Assembly: GCA_019694165.1 (NCBI GenBank)
Contig: JAIBCL010000003.1
Span: 372,001-436,000, forward strand
Reading direction: 5' to 3'
Length of the DNA: 64,000 nucleotides
Origin: Verrucomicrobiaceae bacterium
GTDB lineage: Bacteria; Verrucomicrobiota; Verrucomicrobiia; Verrucomicrobiales; Verrucomicrobiaceae
The notes under the pieces were generated by a model, which saw only the letters and a list, made by a program, of their open reading frames with translations, searched no databases and was not told where the DNA came from. The position numbers were made by a program, and so were the translations under genes. Every line of letters starts with the position of its first letter. Position 1 is the stretch's first letter. This document shows positions 1,322-28,791 of this stretch, piece after piece.

Positions 1322-4300
1322 TCAACGCAGGGTCACGAAGTCGTTGTGACTGAGCAGCGCCTGCAAAAACAGGCTGCGGTTCCGATTCATGGATGCAAAA
1401 CCCTCCGAGCTTGCGGTGCGCTCCGCTTCGGTGGGCGGGCGATTGAGGATGGTGATGAAGGATTGCTCGATGAACCCCTTCTCATCGAGCTTGCTCATCT
1501 GCGCAGCGAGAGCATCGGCGCATTCGCGGCTGAGCTTGCTGTTCGTCAAAGCGAGCGCCTGCTGCGGAACGACGCTTTCATTGCGGCGGTAGCATTCGAG
1601 GACGTTGCTGTTGTCGAAGGTCGCGAGGAAGCGGTGCTCGGTATCGGCATTCTGCACAAAGTAGAGTGAGCGGCGCGGGCTCGATTCCGATTTGTCGGGA
1701 TCGAGGCTGGGACCACCGAGCGTGAGATCGAGTTTGCCAGCGAGATGCAGCAGGCTGTCGCGCACGACCTGGCTCTCCATCCGGCGCGGGTTCATGCGCC
1801 AGTAGCAGGCGTTGTCGGGATCAGCGGCGACGGTGGCTGCGTCGGCATTCGCATTCGAGGAGCTGCGACGATACAAATCGGAGAGCACCATGGCCCGGTG
1901 GAGATGCTTCATGCTCCAGCCGTTGGCCATGAAATCGACCGTCAGCGAGTCGAGGATGTCCTGATGCAGCGGTGCAGGACAGCGCAGGCCCATATCATCG
2001 CCATTCGGCACGAGCGAGGCACCGAAATGCCGCGTCCACACCTGGTTTACGAGCACGCGAGCCGTGAGTGGATTGCGCTTGTCGGTAATCCAGCGCGCGA
2101 AGGCGAGGCGGCGGCCGGTGCTGGTGTCGGGATACGACTGCACCGTCGCGTTGTTGTTCTCCTCCGGACCTTCCCGTGCTTTCAGGCTTGCGGGAAGCGA
2201 GGTGTAGGTGTCACCGGGCGATTCAACTTTCTTCTTTGCTTTCTCCAGCGCTTCGCGAGCGGCTTTGATCTTCTTGTCAGCATCCTTGGCCTTCGGATCG
2301 GCTTCGGCTTTGGCGAGTTCGAACTCGGCTTGTGCGAGTTTATATTTCGACTCGGCAGCGGCAGCGGACTGCGCGAGCGTCTTGTCCTTGCTGCCCCTCT
2401 CCGCGGCAAAAACGGCGCGAATCATCGGGACGCGAGCCTTCGCTGCGGCGAGCTGTTTTTCGGCGAGGGCGACAGCTGATTTGGCATCGGTCGCCGAAGC
2501 CACCGGTCCACTGCCCGCCTCGCGGAGGACGACCTTTGAGTCGAGTTCCGTGAGCTGGAAGCGGTGAAACTCGACGTCGCAATCGAAGGCAGTGAGCGCC
2601 ATCACGCCGGCACGACGCGGCTGCGTGAGACGATACGACAAAACAGGCTCGCCATTGATGCTCGCATTGAGAAGCTGGTCGCGGATGCGCACGTTGAGCG
2701 TGTAGCGCACGTCCTGCGCGATGGGCCGCGCCACTGCACCTGCCGCCGGATAGACCGACTTGCCGTCTTTGCTCGTCGAAAACTGAATCTTCGATCCGCC
2801 GCTGACCGCGCTCATGTAAATCATCGTGTCTTCGCCATTCGCACTGTCAAAAACGAAGCCGACGGATTTCCATTTCTGACCTCCGCGAATCGTGAAGCTC
2901 ACGCTGGCATCGAAGTCGGCGGGTGGTTCGGCTTTCAATTGCATCACTCGACGCTCGGCGCCGATCTCACGCTGACGCACGCCTGTCGCAGAATACTGCC
3001 AGTCGCCTTTGATGATCTGCCAGCGATCCGGCGCGGCTTGTTTGAAGTCATCGCTGATGCTCACCTTCGATGTGGCGACGGCCTTCGCCGCTGGCGGCGA
3101 AGATTTGGCGAGCGCCTGCTTCGCGTTGTCGAGAGCCTTTTGCGCAGCGGTGACTTCGCGTTCGGCAGCCTTGAGCTGATCGTCGAGCACGAAAGGCAGA
3201 AGCGCGGGTTTTGCAGTCGCGGCAGGAAGTTTGATCTTCGACGGCTGGAACGATGCAAACTCGAGCACCGGCGGGATGCCGGGCTGCATCGGCTTGGATT
3301 TGTCCTCGTTTTTCTCGTCGCCGCGCACATGGCGGAATGTTTTCTGATCGAGATGGAGATCGAAGACACGCGGCAGGCCGTTTTTCTCGAAGTCCGTCTC
3401 GCCGGGCCACGGATCGAGCCGCACGTGCATCGGCTCGAAGATGGCCCTCATGCGATAGTAGTCGGGCTGGTCGATGGGATCGTACTTGTGGTCGTGGCAC
3501 TTCACGCACTGCATCGTGACGCCGAGGAACGCGCGGCAGGTGTGCTCGATCGTTTCATCCAGCCACGTGGTGCGATTGAAGAGATAATAGCTGCGCGCCA
3601 GGAAGCCGGTGGCGCGGAGATTGTCGCGATCCTCGGGCGCGAGTTCATCGGCGGCCAGCATTTGCACGATCATCTTATCGTACCCTTTGTCGGCATTCAG
3701 CGACTCCACGATCCAATCGCGCCAGTGCCAGATGTGCTTCTGCGAATGCCGGAGCTGGTCACCAAGGCCATACCAGTCGCAGTAGCGCCAGATGTCCATG
3801 AAGTGCCGCGCCCAACGTTCACCGTATTGGGGAGAAGAGAGAAGCGAATCAACGATCTTTGAGTCGGACTCGTCGGACCTGGCAGGCCGGGCGATATACT
3901 CCCTCACTTGCTCCGCCGTCGGTGGCAGGCCGATGAGATCGAGATAAACGCGCCTCAGCCAAACCTCCGGCGCCGCCTCCGGCTGTGGCTTCAGATTCTT
4001 CGATGCAAACCGCGCAGCGAGCAGCGCATCCATCGACTTCCCCGAAGCTTTCGGCGGCTGATACGCCCAGTGCGCACGCGGATCAGCCTGCGGCAGTTCA
4101 TTTGCGGGAGCAGGCGCGCCGGCCTCGATCCATGCCTTCAGCTTCGCAACTTGCTCCGCTGTGAGCATCGATCCCTCGCCCTCCGGCGGCATTCGGTCGT
4201 GTTTGTCAGTCGTCGTCACACGCTCGATGAGCAGCGAATGCTCGCGTGAGAGAATGTCGCCCCCTTCCCCGCCCTTGCGCATCGCAGTCGCCGTATCGAG

Positions 4301-8870: not shown

Positions 8871-9596
8871 ATGACCACACCACGCCGCCCCCGTTCCGCA
8901 TCGTCCTTTCACACCACGCGCTGGACGCGTGTCTGCCTCGCGAAGGCGGACTCCGAGGACGGCCGCAGGGCGCTGGCGGATTTGTGCGATGCGTACTACG
9001 AGCCGGTCGTGACCTGGCTGCGCCATGCGCTGAAGGACGCGGATGCGGCGCGGGACGCGGCCCACGCGTTCTTCGCCGGAATGCTGGGCGGCGGCAGGAT
9101 CGACACGGCGGCGCGGGACCGCGGGCGTTTCCGCTCCTTCCTGCTGGGGGCGGTGAAGCATTTCCTCGCGCACCAGCAGGAAGCGGTGCTGCGCTTGAAA
9201 CGCGGTGGCGGCACCGAATCCGTGGCGCTGGACGATTCCGAGGCCGGTGAGGTGGCGGACGCGCGGCAGCCCCAGCCCGACGTGGAATATGACCGGCAGT
9301 GGGCGATGACCGTCATCACGCGGAGCATCGACGCCTTGCGCGAGGAATGCGTGGCGGAAGGGCGCGGCGACTTCTTCGACCGCGTCAGCAGCATCCTGAG
9401 CGGCCAGGCGGACCACGGAGACCAGACCAAGATGGCAGCGCAATGCGGCATGGGTTTCGATGCCTTCCGCATGGCGGTCAGCCGCCTGCGGAAACGCCTG
9501 CGCCAGTGCGTGAAGGCCGAGGTGGCCGGCACGCTGGATGATCCGGCCGCCGTGCAGTCGGAAATGGAGACGCTGTTCGCGGCGTTGAGCCGGTGA
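8871..9596 (+). CDS. ECF-type RNA polymerase sigma factor (first module)
   Basis: The 241-residue protein opens with a TRWTRVCLAKADSEDGRRALADLCDAYYEPV segment, the start of sigma region 2, continues with DAAHAFFAGML and RFRSFLLGAVKHFL, and ends with a region 4 helix-turn-helix (TKMAAQCGMGFDAFRMAVSRLRKRLRQ). It recruits RNA polymerase to a small regulon. It shares this layout, including an RGGGTE linker, with the sigma factor at 14332. The kinase gene starts 45 bp downstream, so sigma factor and kinase form one unit. The family pattern suggests that the membrane kinase controls the sigma factor by phosphorylation. No anti-sigma gene is present. Confidence 0.87.
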   Translation: MTTPRRPRSASSFHTTRWTRVCLAKADSEDGRRALADLCDAYYEPVVTWLRHALKDADAARDAAHAFFAGMLGGGRIDTAARDRGRFRSFLLGAVKHFLAHQQEAVLRLKRGGGTESVALDDSEAGEVADARQPQPDVEYDRQWAMTVITRSIDALREECVAEGRGDFFDRVSSILSGQADHGDQTKMAAQCGMGFDAFRMAVSRLRKRLRQCVKAEVAGTLDDPAAVQSEMETLFAALSR

Positions 9597-9641
9597 AAAA
9601 TGTTTGTTCGGTTTGTGACGCGGGCACGTCAGGATACTGAC

Positions 9642-12600
9642 ATGAGCGGCTCATCCTCCATGCAAGCCTGTTCGCACTGCGGCGCGGTGCTGCCAGAAGG
9701 CATGCCGCAGAGCCGGTGCCCGCGCTGCCTGATGGCGCAGGTCATCAAACCGACGCAGGCGGGCGGCCAGCCGTCGGCCATCCCTCCGCTCACGCCCGAA
9801 GAACTCGCACCGCATTTCCCGCAGCTCGAAATCATCGAGTGCCTTGGCCGCGGCGGCATGGGTGTGGTTTACAAGGCGCGGCAGAAATCACTGAACCGTC
9901 TTGTCGCTCTGAAACTGCTCGCACCAGAGCGCGCGGACGATCCGCAGTTCGCGGCGAGGTTTGAAAAGGAAGCACAGGCTCTCGCGGCGCTGAACCATCC
10001 GCACATCGTGGCCGTGTATGATTTCGGCAGTGTGGAAGCGACGCCCTCGTGCCCTCTCTACTTCATCATCATGGAGTTCGTCGATGGCGTGAATCTCCGA
10101 CAGCTCCTGCAAACCAAGCGCCTCACGCCAAAGGAGGCATTGAGCATCGTGCCGCCGGTGTGCGATGCGCTGCAATGCGCGCACGACCGCGGCATCGTGC
10201 ATCGCGACATCAAGCCGGAGAACCTTCTTATCGACAAGAACGGCACGGTGAAGATCGCGGACTTCGGCATCGCGAAGATGTACGGCAGCCATCTCGCTCC
10301 GCGAGATGAGCCTTGCGCTGCCGCAGGCTCGGAAACCGCTGGAACTGCGGCAGCACACGCCTCCGACGAAAACGCCCGGCTCATCTCGCGGAGCGAGATG
10401 GCTACTTTGGGCACGCCCGACTACGCCGCGCCAGAGCAGGCAAGCGGCAGCGCGGACCACCGCGCGGACATCTACAGCCTCGGCGTCGTGCTTTACGAAA
10501 TGCTTACCGACGAGCGGCCGAAGGAAAACCTCGTGCCACCCTCGAAGCGCGTGCAGGTGGACATCCGCATCGACGAGATCGTGCTGCGCGCGCTGGAGAA
10601 GGTGCCCGAGCTGCGCTTCGCCACAGCAGCGGAGTTCCGCACGCAGGTGGAAGCCGTGACCACGCTCTCCAAGCCTGGCACAGCAACCACAGGCATCTGG
10701 TTCAACCGGCTCGCCATGCTGATCAGTGTGAACGTCTGGGCCGCCATGGGCAGCTACACATTGCTGTGCAACATGACCGGCAAGGACTCCTCACGGCACT
10801 GGTATCCCGCCATCGCGGCAGCCGTGCTGCCCGTGCTCTTGTTGTTAAACGGGATCTTCATGCGCTTGTGGAAGCAAGTCTCGCCGGAAGAAGAACTGCG
10901 AAAGCGGCGGGAACAGAAGAAGCGCCTCGACATGCTCCTGGCCGCCTCAGCCCCGAAACGCCCGGGAGCCACCGAGCCCGCGCCGGACTTTGCCGTCGGC
11001 GCGGTCCTCTTTTTCACCGTATTCTTCGCTGGGATGCTCTGCTTCGAAGGCATTGGGCTCGACTCCATACGCTGCTACCTGCTGCTCATCTTCGGAGCCT
11101 TCTTCATCGCCATGCCGCTTGGCTGGTGGGGCAGCCTGGTGCTGTATGGGCGTGTCTCGTCGCGGGACGAAGCCCTGCGCACGTCCGCGCTCCGCTGGTT
11201 CCGCACGCTGTCAGCGCTGTCATTCGGGCTCGCCGTTGCTGCCATGCTGTTTTGCGGCATCAGCTTGTTCCGGTTGATGGCCAATGACGGGCAATGGCAC
11301 TCCACACCGCGCGAGTGGCTCATCGCCATCTCATCCACCACCGGCACCGTGCTCATGTTCGGCGCGCATGTGCGGCTGAAGCACATCGCCGCCCAGCCCA
11401 TGCACTCATGGACCCGAGGCACCTCCACCTTCACCGGTTGCCTTGGTCTCTTCACCATCAGCGCCGTTGTCGGGGTTCTCGTGGTATTAAAAAGCTGCCG
11501 GCCGTCTCGCTCGTCGCCAGTGCGAGCGGACGGCACAAACATCGCCGAGAACACGTTGGTCGAAGCGGCAAAGCAAAAACTCGAACACATGCGCGCAACG
11601 GTGCCGTTTGCCGTTCACTACTTGGGAGCGGAGGCGGCACGGCAGGATTTGTTGGCCGAGCATCCCGAACTGGCGGGTGCGATTGGCTCAGTGGACACGG
11701 CAACGAACACCATCACGCTGCGTCCGAAGGGCCCTGGGTTTGAAAAGGCGCGCCGGCTTCTCGAAGCACTCGATCAGCGGCCTGACCAAGTCTTGCTGCG
11801 ATGTGAGGTGAGAGAGATAGTGAAGGGCGCGACGGGGCATCGCGAAGAGAAGGTCATCTCGCGCCCGACGCTGTATGGAATTCCGAACCGCGCGGTGACG
11901 ATCAGCACAGGCATCAGGGCGTCCGCTGGCGCTGGTGGCTCCCGTGCTCTGGCTGTGAATCTCACTCCGTCCGGCGAAGGCGGTGGCGCGGACGGCGCGA
12001 CGCCCAAGCGGATAGCTCTTTCCGGCAATTTCACGGAGGTTCAGGAATCAAACATCGTTGGCGCACCGCCGCATCGCGGACTCGACACGCCGCTGGGTAC
12101 CGTCACCGTTGCATCCGGCGGGACTGTGGAGTTCACCCACACGACAACGGGAGGCCGCACGCTCCGATTGCTTGTGACACCCCGATGGGTAAATGGCGAC
12201 AAGTTCGGGGAGCGGTCCACCACCTCGATCCAAGGCACCATGAATGACGACGACCTCAAGAAGCTCTCCTGGCATGAGTTTGATCAGTCGCCAGGCAAAT
12301 ACTGGCGCGAGCTGGCCGACGTGCGGCGCTTCGTGGACGCCGCCAGGCTCATTGAGCGGTATCTTGTGCTGCATCCCGAGATCGAGCCGATCAATGCGGC
12401 CAATCTTCACTTTCACACCGGTCAGTGCCTCGCGATGGGTGGCGAGACGGAGTCGGCCATTGAGAAACTCAAACTCGCTCGTCACGCGTCCGAAATCCTG
12501 GGCGGATTGCTTTGGAACGACTACGTCGATGGCACGGCGGCTTTTCTGAAACGTGACAAGCAGGCCCTTCTCGACGCACACATCCGGCTTGCCGGGGGCG

Positions 12601-13133
12601 ATGTGATCAACAAGCCAAATGTCGGCGTGCTCGACCGCTTGGTCGCGCACTTCGGCAAAACCTACGCCGACGCATACGAAACCGCCGGCCAGGATCACAA
12701 GAACCTCAGCGCCGACTGCTTCAACCTCGCGTGGGAGCTGCTGCAAAAGAAGGACCGCACCAAGGAAGACGACGCGCGCATGATCTCGCTCGCGCACGAG
12801 TCGCTGGCTCACTGGCGGATGCGGGACGACTGCACGGATCGAAATCTGAGCATCGGCTACTGGCAGATCTCCCGCGTGTATGCCGTGGTCGGCCAGGGAC
12901 ACAACGCGGGACGCTACGGCGAGCTATGTTTGCAGGTCAGCGGAAAGGAGGAGCCGTTTTACCTCGCCTACGCTCATGAAGCGCTGGCGCGTGCGGCATT
13001 GCTCAACCAGCGACGTGACCTCTTCGACAAGCACCTTGCCGAGGCGCGGTCGCTCTCCGCGAAAGTTGCCGACGCGGGTGAAAAAAAGATGCTGGACGAT
13101 GATCTGGCCGGTCTTGTATGGAAAGGCGACTGA
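9642..13133 (+). CDS. Membrane serine/threonine protein kinase with secretin-like and TPR-like C-terminal regions
   Basis: I place the start at ATG 9642, preceded by AGGA at 9631; an upstream in-frame ATG at 9600 has no such site. The 1163-residue product has a zinc-ribbon-like N-terminus (Cys10, 13, 26, 29), then a Hanks-type kinase: P-loop 69-74, Lys91, HRD 187-189, DFG 207, GTPDYAAPEQ near 257. Residues 216-254 in the activation segment are encoded by a perfect inverted-repeat element. Several transmembrane segments follow (about 350-630), then a region resembling secretin N-domains (ATNTITL, RRLLEALDQRPDQVLL, LRLLVTPRW) around 683-865, and a helical TPR-like region to the end. It likely senses an envelope signal and phosphorylates targets, perhaps the neighbouring sigma factor. 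The secretin likeness is by eye only. Confidence 0.87.
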   Translation: MSGSSSMQACSHCGAVLPEGMPQSRCPRCLMAQVIKPTQAGGQPSAIPPLTPEELAPHFPQLEIIECLGRGGMGVVYKARQKSLNRLVALKLLAPERADDPQFAARFEKEAQALAALNHPHIVAVYDFGSVEATPSCPLYFIIMEFVDGVNLRQLLQTKRLTPKEALSIVPPVCDALQCAHDRGIVHRDIKPENLLIDKNGTVKIADFGIAKMYGSHLAPRDEPCAAAGSETAGTAAAHASDENARLISRSEMATLGTPDYAAPEQASGSADHRADIYSLGVVLYEMLTDERPKENLVPPSKRVQVDIRIDEIVLRALEKVPELRFATAAEFRTQVEAVTTLSKPGTATTGIWFNRLAMLISVNVWAAMGSYTLLCNMTGKDSSRHWYPAIAAAVLPVLLLLNGIFMRLWKQVSPEEELRKRREQKKRLDMLLAASAPKRPGATEPAPDFAVGAVLFFTVFFAGMLCFEGIGLDSIRCYLLLIFGAFFIAMPLGWWGSLVLYGRVSSRDEALRTSALRWFRTLSALSFGLAVAAMLFCGISLFRLMANDGQWHSTPREWLIAISSTTGTVLMFGAHVRLKHIAAQPMHSWTRGTSTFTGCLGLFTISAVVGVLVVLKSCRPSRSSPVRADGTNIAENTLVEAAKQKLEHMRATVPFAVHYLGAEAARQDLLAEHPELAGAIGSVDTATNTITLRPKGPGFEKARRLLEALDQRPDQVLLRCEVREIVKGATGHREEKVISRPTLYGIPNRAVTISTGIRASAGAGGSRALAVNLTPSGEGGGADGATPKRIALSGNFTEVQESNIVGAPPHRGLDTPLGTVTVASGGTVEFTHTTTGGRTLRLLVTPRWVNGDKFGERSTTSIQGTMNDDDLKKLSWHEFDQSPGKYWRELADVRRFVDAARLIERYLVLHPEIEPINAANLHFHTGQCLAMGGETESAIEKLKLARHASEILGGLLWNDYVDGTAAFLKRDKQALLDAHIRLAGGDVINKPNVGVLDRLVAHFGKTYADAYETAGQDHKNLSADCFNLAWELLQKKDRTKEDDARMISLAHESLAHWRMRDDCTDRNLSIGYWQISRVYAVVGQGHNAGRYGELCLQVSGKEEPFYLAYAHEALARAALLNQRRDLFDKHLAEARSLSAKVADAGEKKMLDDDLAGLVWKGD
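10287..10403. repeat. Palindromic element inserted in kinase activation segment (perfect 26-bp inverted repeat)
   Basis: Positions 10287-10312 and 10378-10403 are exact reverse complements over 26 bp. A second inner pair, CTGCCGCAG at 10318-10326 and CTGCGGCAG at 10345-10353, lies between them. Each long arm is itself nearly palindromic around CTCGCTCCGCGAG. The whole element is 117 bp, a multiple of three, and is translated in frame as kinase residues 216-254. It looks like a small non-autonomous palindromic repeat rather than part of the ancestral kinase. Confidence 0.85.
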
Positions 13134-15046: not shown

Positions 15047-15075
15047 GTAACCTCCGCCGCTCCGTCTCCAAGGAA
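15047..15075 (+). promoter_or_regulatory. Conserved upstream block, copy 2 (GTAACCT-N11-TCTCCAAGGAA)
   Basis: GTAACCT at 15047-15053 and TCTCCAAGGAA at 15065-15075 repeat the block seen ahead of the sigma gene, with identical 11-bp spacing. AAGGAA lies 5 bp before the kinase ATG at 15081 and is a good ribosome-binding site. The 38-bp gap between sigma and kinase genes is almost wholly filled by this block, so it may let the kinase be transcribed or translated separately. Confidence 0.4.
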
Positions 15076-15080
15076 CAGGC

Positions 15081-17390
<2,310 letters not shown>

Positions 17391-27075: not shown

Positions 27076-27441
27076 TCCGTGCGCTTCGCGGCCACATAGC
27101 GAGGTTCTGGCGGCCTGACTGGCTGCCGTGGAGCTTCCGCGCCACGTCACCCACGCGCTCACCGGTCGCACCGCGATCATCCCGAGCCTTCCCTCGTCAC
27201 GCGGAGACGGGCGGATCGGTTCCGCGCCGGTCTCAAGCCCCTCCGTGACCAGGTTTCGCGCGTTGGTCATGCCTGGCAAGGAAGGAACCAGCGTCCGAAG
27301 ATCAAATCATCTTCCGGCTCGTTGTCGCGGTTCGATTCCCGTTTGCCAAGCCAACCGGACCAGCTACTCTGCGCGCCCCAAAAATCCGGCGCACGTGCAG
27401 CCTTGCCCGGCCCCATCATCCTCCGCCCGCCCCATTCCGCC
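27076..27441. other. Gene-free region with tRNA-3'-end-like sequence, upstream of trigger factor
   Basis: No convincing coding frame lies in these 366 bp. Two structures stand out. AAGAT-CAAATC-ATCTT at about 27298-27313 is a small hairpin. At 27329-27353 the sequence GGTTCGATTCCCG runs into TTTGCCAAGCCA, which looks like a tRNA T-loop, acceptor strand and CCA. A possible 5' acceptor strand, CTGGCAA, is at 27273-27279. The T-stem and a 7-nt anticodon loop do not form, so I do not call a tRNA. Confidence 0.4.
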
Positions 27442-28791
27442 ATGAACATCAATGTCGAACACCAGCCGAACTGCCGCGCCATCGCCCATGTCCGCGTGCC
27501 CGGTGAGGAAGTGAACAAGAATCGTGACGAGATCGTGTCCTACTTCGCCCGCCAGGTGCGACTGCCCGGCTACCGCCCCGGCAAGACGCCGAAGTCCGTG
27601 GTGGCAAAGCGCTATGAGGCCGAGATCCGCTCCGAGCTGGAGAACCAGCTCGTCAACGAGGGCCTGCGCCAGGCCATCAAAAACGAGGGCCTCGAAGTGC
27701 TCAATGTCCTCTCCGTGAAGGACAAGCTGCACCATGACCCGGACCGCAGCTTCTCCTTCAGCGCCGAGCTGATGCTCGCGCCGAAATTCGAACTGCCCGA
27801 CTACAAAGGCATCCCCGTAAAGCTGCCGCGCATCGAGGTGACCGACGCCGACATCGACCACGACCTTCTCCACATGCGTGAGCGCCAACAGACCTTTGAA
27901 GACGTGGACCGTGCCGCCGCGAACGACGACGTGGTGAGTCTCTCTTACAGCGTCAGCCTCGACGGCCGGCCCGTTGAGCAGACCGTCCCCGATGTGCCCG
28001 AGCACCTCAAGAAAGTCGAAGAGCAGTGGTTCCTTCTCGACACGGAGGAGGACTTCCTCCCCGGCTTCTACGCCTCCATGCAGGGCATCACCAAGGGCGC
28101 GCAAAAGAAGGTGGAGGTCGCCCTGCCTGATGACTTTGGTGTCGAGGCCCTCCGCGGCAGGACCATCGTGCTCGATGTCACCTGCTCCGCCGTGAAGGAG
28201 AAGCGCCTGCCGGAACTGACCGAGGAGTTTGCCAAGAAAATCGGCGGCGAGGAAATGACCGTCGAGACCCTGCGTGGAGAAGTGCGCGAGGCCGTGCGGC
28301 GCCGGCGCGAGCAGGCTCGCGACCAGTCCACCACGAACCAGGTGCTCGCCGCGTTGCACGACCGCATCGAATTCGACATCCCGCAGGAGATCATCAACCG
28401 CGAGGCGCAGCGCCGCACCAATGAGATGGCCCAGCGCGCCATGCAAAGCGGCATGGGACAGGAGGAACTCATGAAACACCAGGAGGAGATCGTCGGTGCC
28501 GCCACGCAGCAGGCGCGCCAGAGCGTGAAAGTGAATTTCATCCTCGAGCAGGTGGCCCAGAAGGAGCAGATCGAAGTCTCCGACCAGCAGCTCAGCGCCG
28601 CGCTCGCCTCCTGGGCGGCGCGCAGTGGCATGCCGGTGAAGAAATTCCTCGCCGAGGCGAAGAAGGGGAGTCTCATCGAGAACCTCCGCGGTGATCTGCT
28701 GCTGCAGAACACACTCAATTTCCTCAAGGACAATGCCGCCGTCGAGGAAACCGATCCCGAGACCGAACGCTGCGAGGTCCACGGACGGTAA
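27442..28791 (+). CDS. tig: Trigger factor (ribosome-associated chaperone, peptidyl-prolyl isomerase)
   Basis: I choose ATG 27442, giving 449 residues, a normal trigger factor length. The ribosome-binding N-domain carries the signature loop as GYRPGKTPKSVV, preceded by a basic/acidic beta-sheet start (MNINVEHQPNCRAIAHVRVP). The FKBP-type isomerase domain begins around residue 150 (DDVVSLSYSVSLDGRPVE) and ends with GRTIVLDVTCSAVKEKRLPEL. The rest is the long helical chaperone arm (FDIPQEIINREAQRRTNEMA). The protein should cradle nascent chains at the ribosome exit. It is not followed by clpP or clpX as in many bacteria; an MFS gene comes next. Confidence 0.93.
   Translation: MNINVEHQPNCRAIAHVRVPGEEVNKNRDEIVSYFARQVRLPGYRPGKTPKSVVAKRYEAEIRSELENQLVNEGLRQAIKNEGLEVLNVLSVKDKLHHDPDRSFSFSAELMLAPKFELPDYKGIPVKLPRIEVTDADIDHDLLHMRERQQTFEDVDRAAANDDVVSLSYSVSLDGRPVEQTVPDVPEHLKKVEEQWFLLDTEEDFLPGFYASMQGITKGAQKKVEVALPDDFGVEALRGRTIVLDVTCSAVKEKRLPELTEEFAKKIGGEEMTVETLRGEVREAVRRRREQARDQSTTNQVLAALHDRIEFDIPQEIINREAQRRTNEMAQRAMQSGMGQEELMKHQEEIVGAATQQARQSVKVNFILEQVAQKEQIEVSDQQLSAALASWAARSGMPVKKFLAEAKKGSLIENLRGDLLLQNTLNFLKDNAAVEETDPETERCEVHGR

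Follow-up and report, generated by a model that had tools for sequence, protein, structure and literature searches.

A REPIN-like palindrome in the activation segment of a PknB-type kinase, a loop occupied by at least six REP families in its clade

No control element of protein kinases is better known than the activation loop, and REPs have long been regarded as mainly extragenic; how, then, does a palindrome of mobile appearance come to lie in frame within such a loop? The question is raised by a 64-kb stretch of Verrucomicrobiaceae DNA, hereafter the window, in which a preliminary description had noted a 117-bp palindrome with perfect 26-bp arms and an inner hairpin between the DFG and GTPDYAAPEQ motifs of a kinase gene. 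The palindrome, its frame and its position in the activation segment are all as described, and its true ends give 121 bp.

The host gene (9600–13133, forward strand; 1177 residues, with the start ATG at 9600 or 9642) encodes a PknB-type (Hanks) Ser/Thr kinase with a C-terminal membrane/sensor region, as judged by its ORF, a profile match of the N-terminal part to PF00069 (E = 2.2e-43) and the predicted fold. In the kinase alignment, the catalytic D, K, N, DFG and APE columns are invariant and the motifs of the window kinase are intact, so that both domain and motifs place it among the Hanks-type kinases (PF00069). An AlphaFold2 model of the kinase domain, built with 42 sequences, adopts the PknB fold (pTM 0.82), and the closest solved structure is that of Mtb PknB. 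The modelled domain is 38–42% identical to PknB and has in common with PknB-type bacterial Ser/Thr kinases (PDB 1mru, 5u94, 6i2p) the fold, the catalytic lysine, HRD, DFG and APE, but differs from them in an activation segment of 59 residues (10259–10435, forward strand, beginning with the DFG at 10259), about 40 of which are REP-encoded. Since pLDDT falls below 50 only at residues 162–201 (window 10281–10400) and exceeds 90 in the core, the REP-encoded stretch probably lengthens the segment in an open, disordered form. The reading frame implies that the element is translated, giving the peptide GSHLAPRDEP...ARLISRSEMAT. Directly upstream of the kinase, the ORF at 8871–9596 resembles, by eye, an ECF-type sigma factor.

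The element (10285–10405, forward strand) is REPIN-like in its inverted repeat, its copies and its folding, and consists of two inverted REPs and a spacer with outer GCAG ... CTAC. Because other genome copies run 5'-GTAGCC ... GGCTAC-3', beyond the ends first given, comparison moved the ends outward to GCAG at 10285–10288 and CTAC at 10402–10405. The left REP (10285–10312, forward) comprises GCAG-C and the hairpin CATCTCGC-TCC-GCGAGATG, and the inverted right REP (10378–10405, reverse strand), with GTAG-C and the same hairpin, matches the family consensus GTAGCC-N-TC-N-CGC-TCC-GCG exactly. The arms, 31 nt each (10287–10317 and 10373–10403), are 94% complementary, with the outer 26 bp perfect, while an inner imperfect pair (10308–10326 and 10345–10363, 84% complementary) accounts for the inner hairpin of the spacer (10313–10377, forward). 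The arm hairpin follows the pattern C-N-T-C-N-C-G-C (TCC) G-C-G-N-G-A-N-G, and its variable stem pairs are complementary in 97/101 and 99/101 arms from the source genome and relatives, with several pair types. As single-stranded DNA, 10285–10405 folds at -51.6 kcal/mol against -24.1 ± 2.5 in shuffles (z = -11), and none of 200 shuffles is as stable. The spacer diverges faster than the arms, with 39/65 positions identical between the window and the related kinase L224, compared with 53/56 in the arms.

A search for further copies, suggested in the preliminary description, recovered 24 arms (at most two mismatches) at 13–14 places in the window's own 7.8-Mb genome (G000), where the hairpin core matches 12 times per orientation against 0–1 for the reversed control; within the window itself, four matches were found where 0.15 would be expected. 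Eight pairs in this genome are exactly inverted, with 62–92 nt between the cores, and single arms are also present. The family occurs in 17 of 57 genomes, all from the source's own taxonomic family, and the reversed pattern gave no matches. Some copies in G000 are intergenic, and several lie in frame in well-coded genes, including those for a TIR/NACHT protein, an FtsX-type permease, an STN/TPR protein and an alpha-2-macroglobulin. The genes for a DUF7133-cytochrome c protein and for a laminin-G/plastocyanin-type protein contain, likewise in frame, REPs of a second family, CAGACAYTCCTGTCTG. Given that copies of two families are read through in several genes, REPs within reading frames are common in this genome. 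The suggestion that the element is mobile is thus supported as far as membership of a multicopy repeat family is concerned; the clean gap expected in orthologues was not found, since they have something else at this place, in several cases a different palindrome.

The usual partner of REPs is a RAYT/Y1 transposase gene flanked by the same REP. Because no such gene directly flanked by the GTAGCC..CGCTCCGCG REP was found in 11 genomes, a RAYT-type enzyme can only be presumed to mobilize the element. Y1_Tnp matches number 16 in G000 and are many in 10 relatives, the closest REP copy lying 1.2 kb from such a gene, at C50. No target-site duplication is evident by eye around the element. In L084, L085, L148, L155, L159 and L170, Y1_Tnp genes are flanked by inverted repeats of other types, such as GCCCAGGG..CCCTGGG, and are candidate REPtrons.

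Among known systems, REPs and REPINs are described as having a GTAG-type foot, a perfect stem, a short loop and inverted dimers (PMC3733652, PMC8266576). The window element shares with this GTAG superfamily (REP/REPIN, also BIME) a 20–30 bp hairpin after a GTAG-type tetranucleotide, a perfect stem with a loop of 3–4 nt (3 nt here), inverted dimers with a spacer and some intragenic copies; the tetranucleotide with a hairpin of 20–50 nt, compensatory changes and the coexistence of single units with inverted dimers all speak for membership. It differs in the lack of a cognate RAYT/REPtron in the genomes searched, in its low copy number (24 arms) and in that several families recur in one protein loop, which was not found described for REPs. 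It is also like a MITE, a short, non-autonomous, multicopy inverted-repeat element, but each of its arms is itself palindromic and single arms occur. Opitutus terrae, another member of Verrucomicrobia, has been reported to be rich in intragenic REPs (PMC3733652). In-frame palindromes of about 100–150 bp, the RPEs, are translated within protein genes of Rickettsia, where a guanylate kinase with an RPE is reported to be still active, with altered substrate affinity (PMC2229807). The likeness to RPEs is one of behaviour only, a translated palindrome in frame in a protein gene; RPEs belong to another lineage and are described as scattered over many proteins, in contrast to the multi-family turnover of one regulatory loop.

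That the loop is a recurrent landing site emerges from 54 related Verrucomicrobiota kinases, collected by genome search and from GTDB loci, in part with the peptide pattern DFGIAKMY from the window's loop, which biases the set mildly toward the window loop type. Their activation segments vary widely, from 29 to 59 residues. Strong palindromes, defined as inverted repeats scoring at least 12, occur in 15/54 activation segments against 5/1994 other, equal-sized windows of the same genes (Fisher 3.6e-21). By region, in 120-nt windows, they amount to 1/228 in the N-terminal part, 4/162 at beta4-beta5 and 0/131 in the rest of the N-lobe, and none was found in 196 windows of the C-lobe. Elsewhere, 2/1137 coding windows of flanking genes and 2/742 other coding windows of the 64 kb have one, the latter including the loop of the neighbouring kinase. 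This next kinase in tandem (gene 15051–17387) has an activation segment of 50 residues (15677–15826, forward strand) with a weaker, imperfect palindrome of score 13. About half of the 54 loops have no recognisable REP. A palindrome as a general property of kinases is rejected, as none scores above 7 in 13 other G000 kinases, whose loops have 30–34 residues. In the window, a coding inverted repeat of score 12 was also seen at 27700, in the gene at 27100–28788.

Comparison of the loops shows at least six unrelated REP families occupying the activation loop of this kinase clade. CATCTCGC-TCC is found in the window, L211 and L224, with half elements in L189, L198 and L191; AACGAACT-TCC in L057, L176, L178 and others; and CAGACA-YTCC in L187, L201 and L186. 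Single kinases carry AACGAGAT-TTCC (L220), CCGCGAG (L192), GAGGGCG-ACC (L193) and CACGGGCA-TCC (L060). Most of these palindromes have matching GTRR/YYAC ends (GTAG/CTAC, GTGA/TCAC, GTGG/CCAC or GTAA/TTAC), and many families converge on nearly identical codons. For several of them, such as CAGACAYTCCTGTCTG, AACGAACTTCC.., GGCACGGGCATCC.. and GAGGGCGACC.., multiple copies exist at other places in the host genome or in relatives. Members of the AACGAACT family are few; the genomes richest in them have them mostly in kinases, a distribution consistent with spread by kinase duplication. The loop of L194 has, at 3594, a hybrid dimer with a left arm AACGAACTTCCGAGTTCGTT and a right arm of another type, CCGACTTTGGAAAGTCGGGCTAC.

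The distribution of loops points to replacement more than to descent. Kinase pairs whose flanking DNA is 86–94% identical have unrelated loops between the flanks, and where orthology is assigned from the C-terminal sensor tails, the tails of L199, L200 and L201 are 71–78% identical, with loops of the AACGAACT type, of 35 residues without a palindrome and of the CAGACA type, respectively. Loop class likewise differs within the tail-orthologous pairs L192/L195 and L187/L198. The tail orthologues of the window kinase (L189, L192, L195 and L216) each have a different loop, that of L189 with part of the window's left arm, and none of them offers a clean empty site in the activation segment. On a tree built from the alignment with the loop cut out, in which bootstrap support is not fully settled and is weak in places, loop classes are scattered, with 24 changes against a shuffled mean of 25.4; counting only well-supported branches, three loop classes need a minimum of 5, 3 and 3 changes. 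L211 and L224 share the 59-residue loop of the window kinase, and the insert thus occurs beyond the source genome as well. As these two kinases have a different tail, loops probably also move between kinases by recombination.

Taken together, the most probable reading, at a confidence of about 0.83, is that a REPIN-like palindrome inserted into the gene of a PknB-type kinase, where its translation lengthens the activation segment by a disordered stretch; across the clade, this loop has been refilled or exchanged. REPs would arrive through RAYT-like single-strand transposition or REP–REP recombination and would be retained since both arms are open in the reading frame and since disorder in the loop need not prevent folding of the kinase core. 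Fillers may then decay by point mutation or be exchanged: a new REPIN may take their place, or recombination in the conserved DFG and GTPxYAAPE flanks may bring in the loop of another kinase. As a likely result, the length, charge and phospho-acceptor residues of the loop would change quickly.

The alternative that survives best, somewhat short of an even chance, is that loops are passed around chiefly among kinase paralogues, through homologous recombination or gene conversion, with few original REPIN insertions. It agrees with the high conservation of the flanks, with window-type loops and homologous spacers on unrelated tails (window versus L224/L211) and with the AACGAACTTCC family in G010 and G017, which is located mostly within tandem kinase paralogues; moreover, such recombination could itself scatter the loops on the tree. 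It cannot, however, account for the origin of at least six REP families without relation to one another, and several of these also occur outside kinases. Rather doubtful is a one-off tolerated insertion, in which REPINs hit coding DNA at random and the activation loop is merely permissive, with no tie to kinases. Such tolerance fits the predicted disorder of the loop and the in-frame presence of the same REP families in FtsX-type permease, alpha-2-macroglobulin, TIR/NACHT, DUF7133-cytochrome c and laminin-G proteins, but not the convergence of many families on nearly the same codons. Moreover, C-terminal tails, expected to tolerate inserts, have strong palindromes in 0/1237 windows against 15/54 in the loop, and this speaks for something beyond tolerance, with site preference, REP–REP exchange and selection as candidates. 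That the palindrome is kept for a role of the nucleic acid and not of the peptide, as an mRNA hairpin, a DNA cruciform or a co-translational pause between the kinase lobes, is improbable: the hairpin is indeed very stable and its arms are better conserved than the spacer between the window and L224, but many homologous loops keep the frame with a decayed palindrome or none, and many genome copies are intergenic or in unrelated genes. An ordinary low-complexity loop whose palindrome stems from chance or codon bias can be dismissed, for although great length and variability (29–59 residues) are usual for loops of this clade, perfect 26-bp arms, covarying stems, copies elsewhere in the genome, enrichment in the loop and the folding energy refute it.

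Returning to the entry and turnover of REPINs in the loop, a further and distinctly speculative step, which we consider unlikely on balance, is that activation loops of Verrucomicrobiaceae serve as a diversification site, where REPINs are captured and exchanged and selection keeps those loops that alter autophosphorylation, partner choice or the insulation of paralogues. If mobile palindromes repeatedly supply the code for this loop, the clade would be a natural experiment on the origin of new regulatory loops, with orthologues differing mainly in the loop as a directly testable set, and REPs would turn out to contribute coding sequence repeatedly to one gene family. Intragenic REPs and the RPEs of Rickettsia are already known; for recurrent, multi-family occupation of an activation loop, or for REPs in such kinase loops at all, no account was found in the open-access literature searched.

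The beta4-beta5 loop is, by sequence comparison, a second and rarer landing site. It has 5 residues in 32 kinases, 18–40 in eight and 10 in the window kinase, where a probable decayed REP (GTGGAAGCGACGCCCTCG...) is recognised at about 10032–10056 (forward strand) by comparison with its intact counterparts in L193 (GTAGAAGCGACGCC..CTAC) and L220. GTAG...CTAC palindromes are intact in these two of the eight long-loop kinases, and a clean empty state is available here, for example, between the orthologues L199 and L201. The GTAGAAGCGACGCC.. family is multicopy in relatives, with 47 arms in G006, and occurs once in G000. Outside the kinases, REPINs with differing arms are present at the same place in two paralogous large genes (L129, 7063–7181, and L130, 7200–7318), of which that of L129 has a TIR match and a weak NACHT match, and a AACGAACT REP pair sits in frame within a membrane protein whose likeness to KdpA was judged by eye (L245, G051:C98, 1500–1568).
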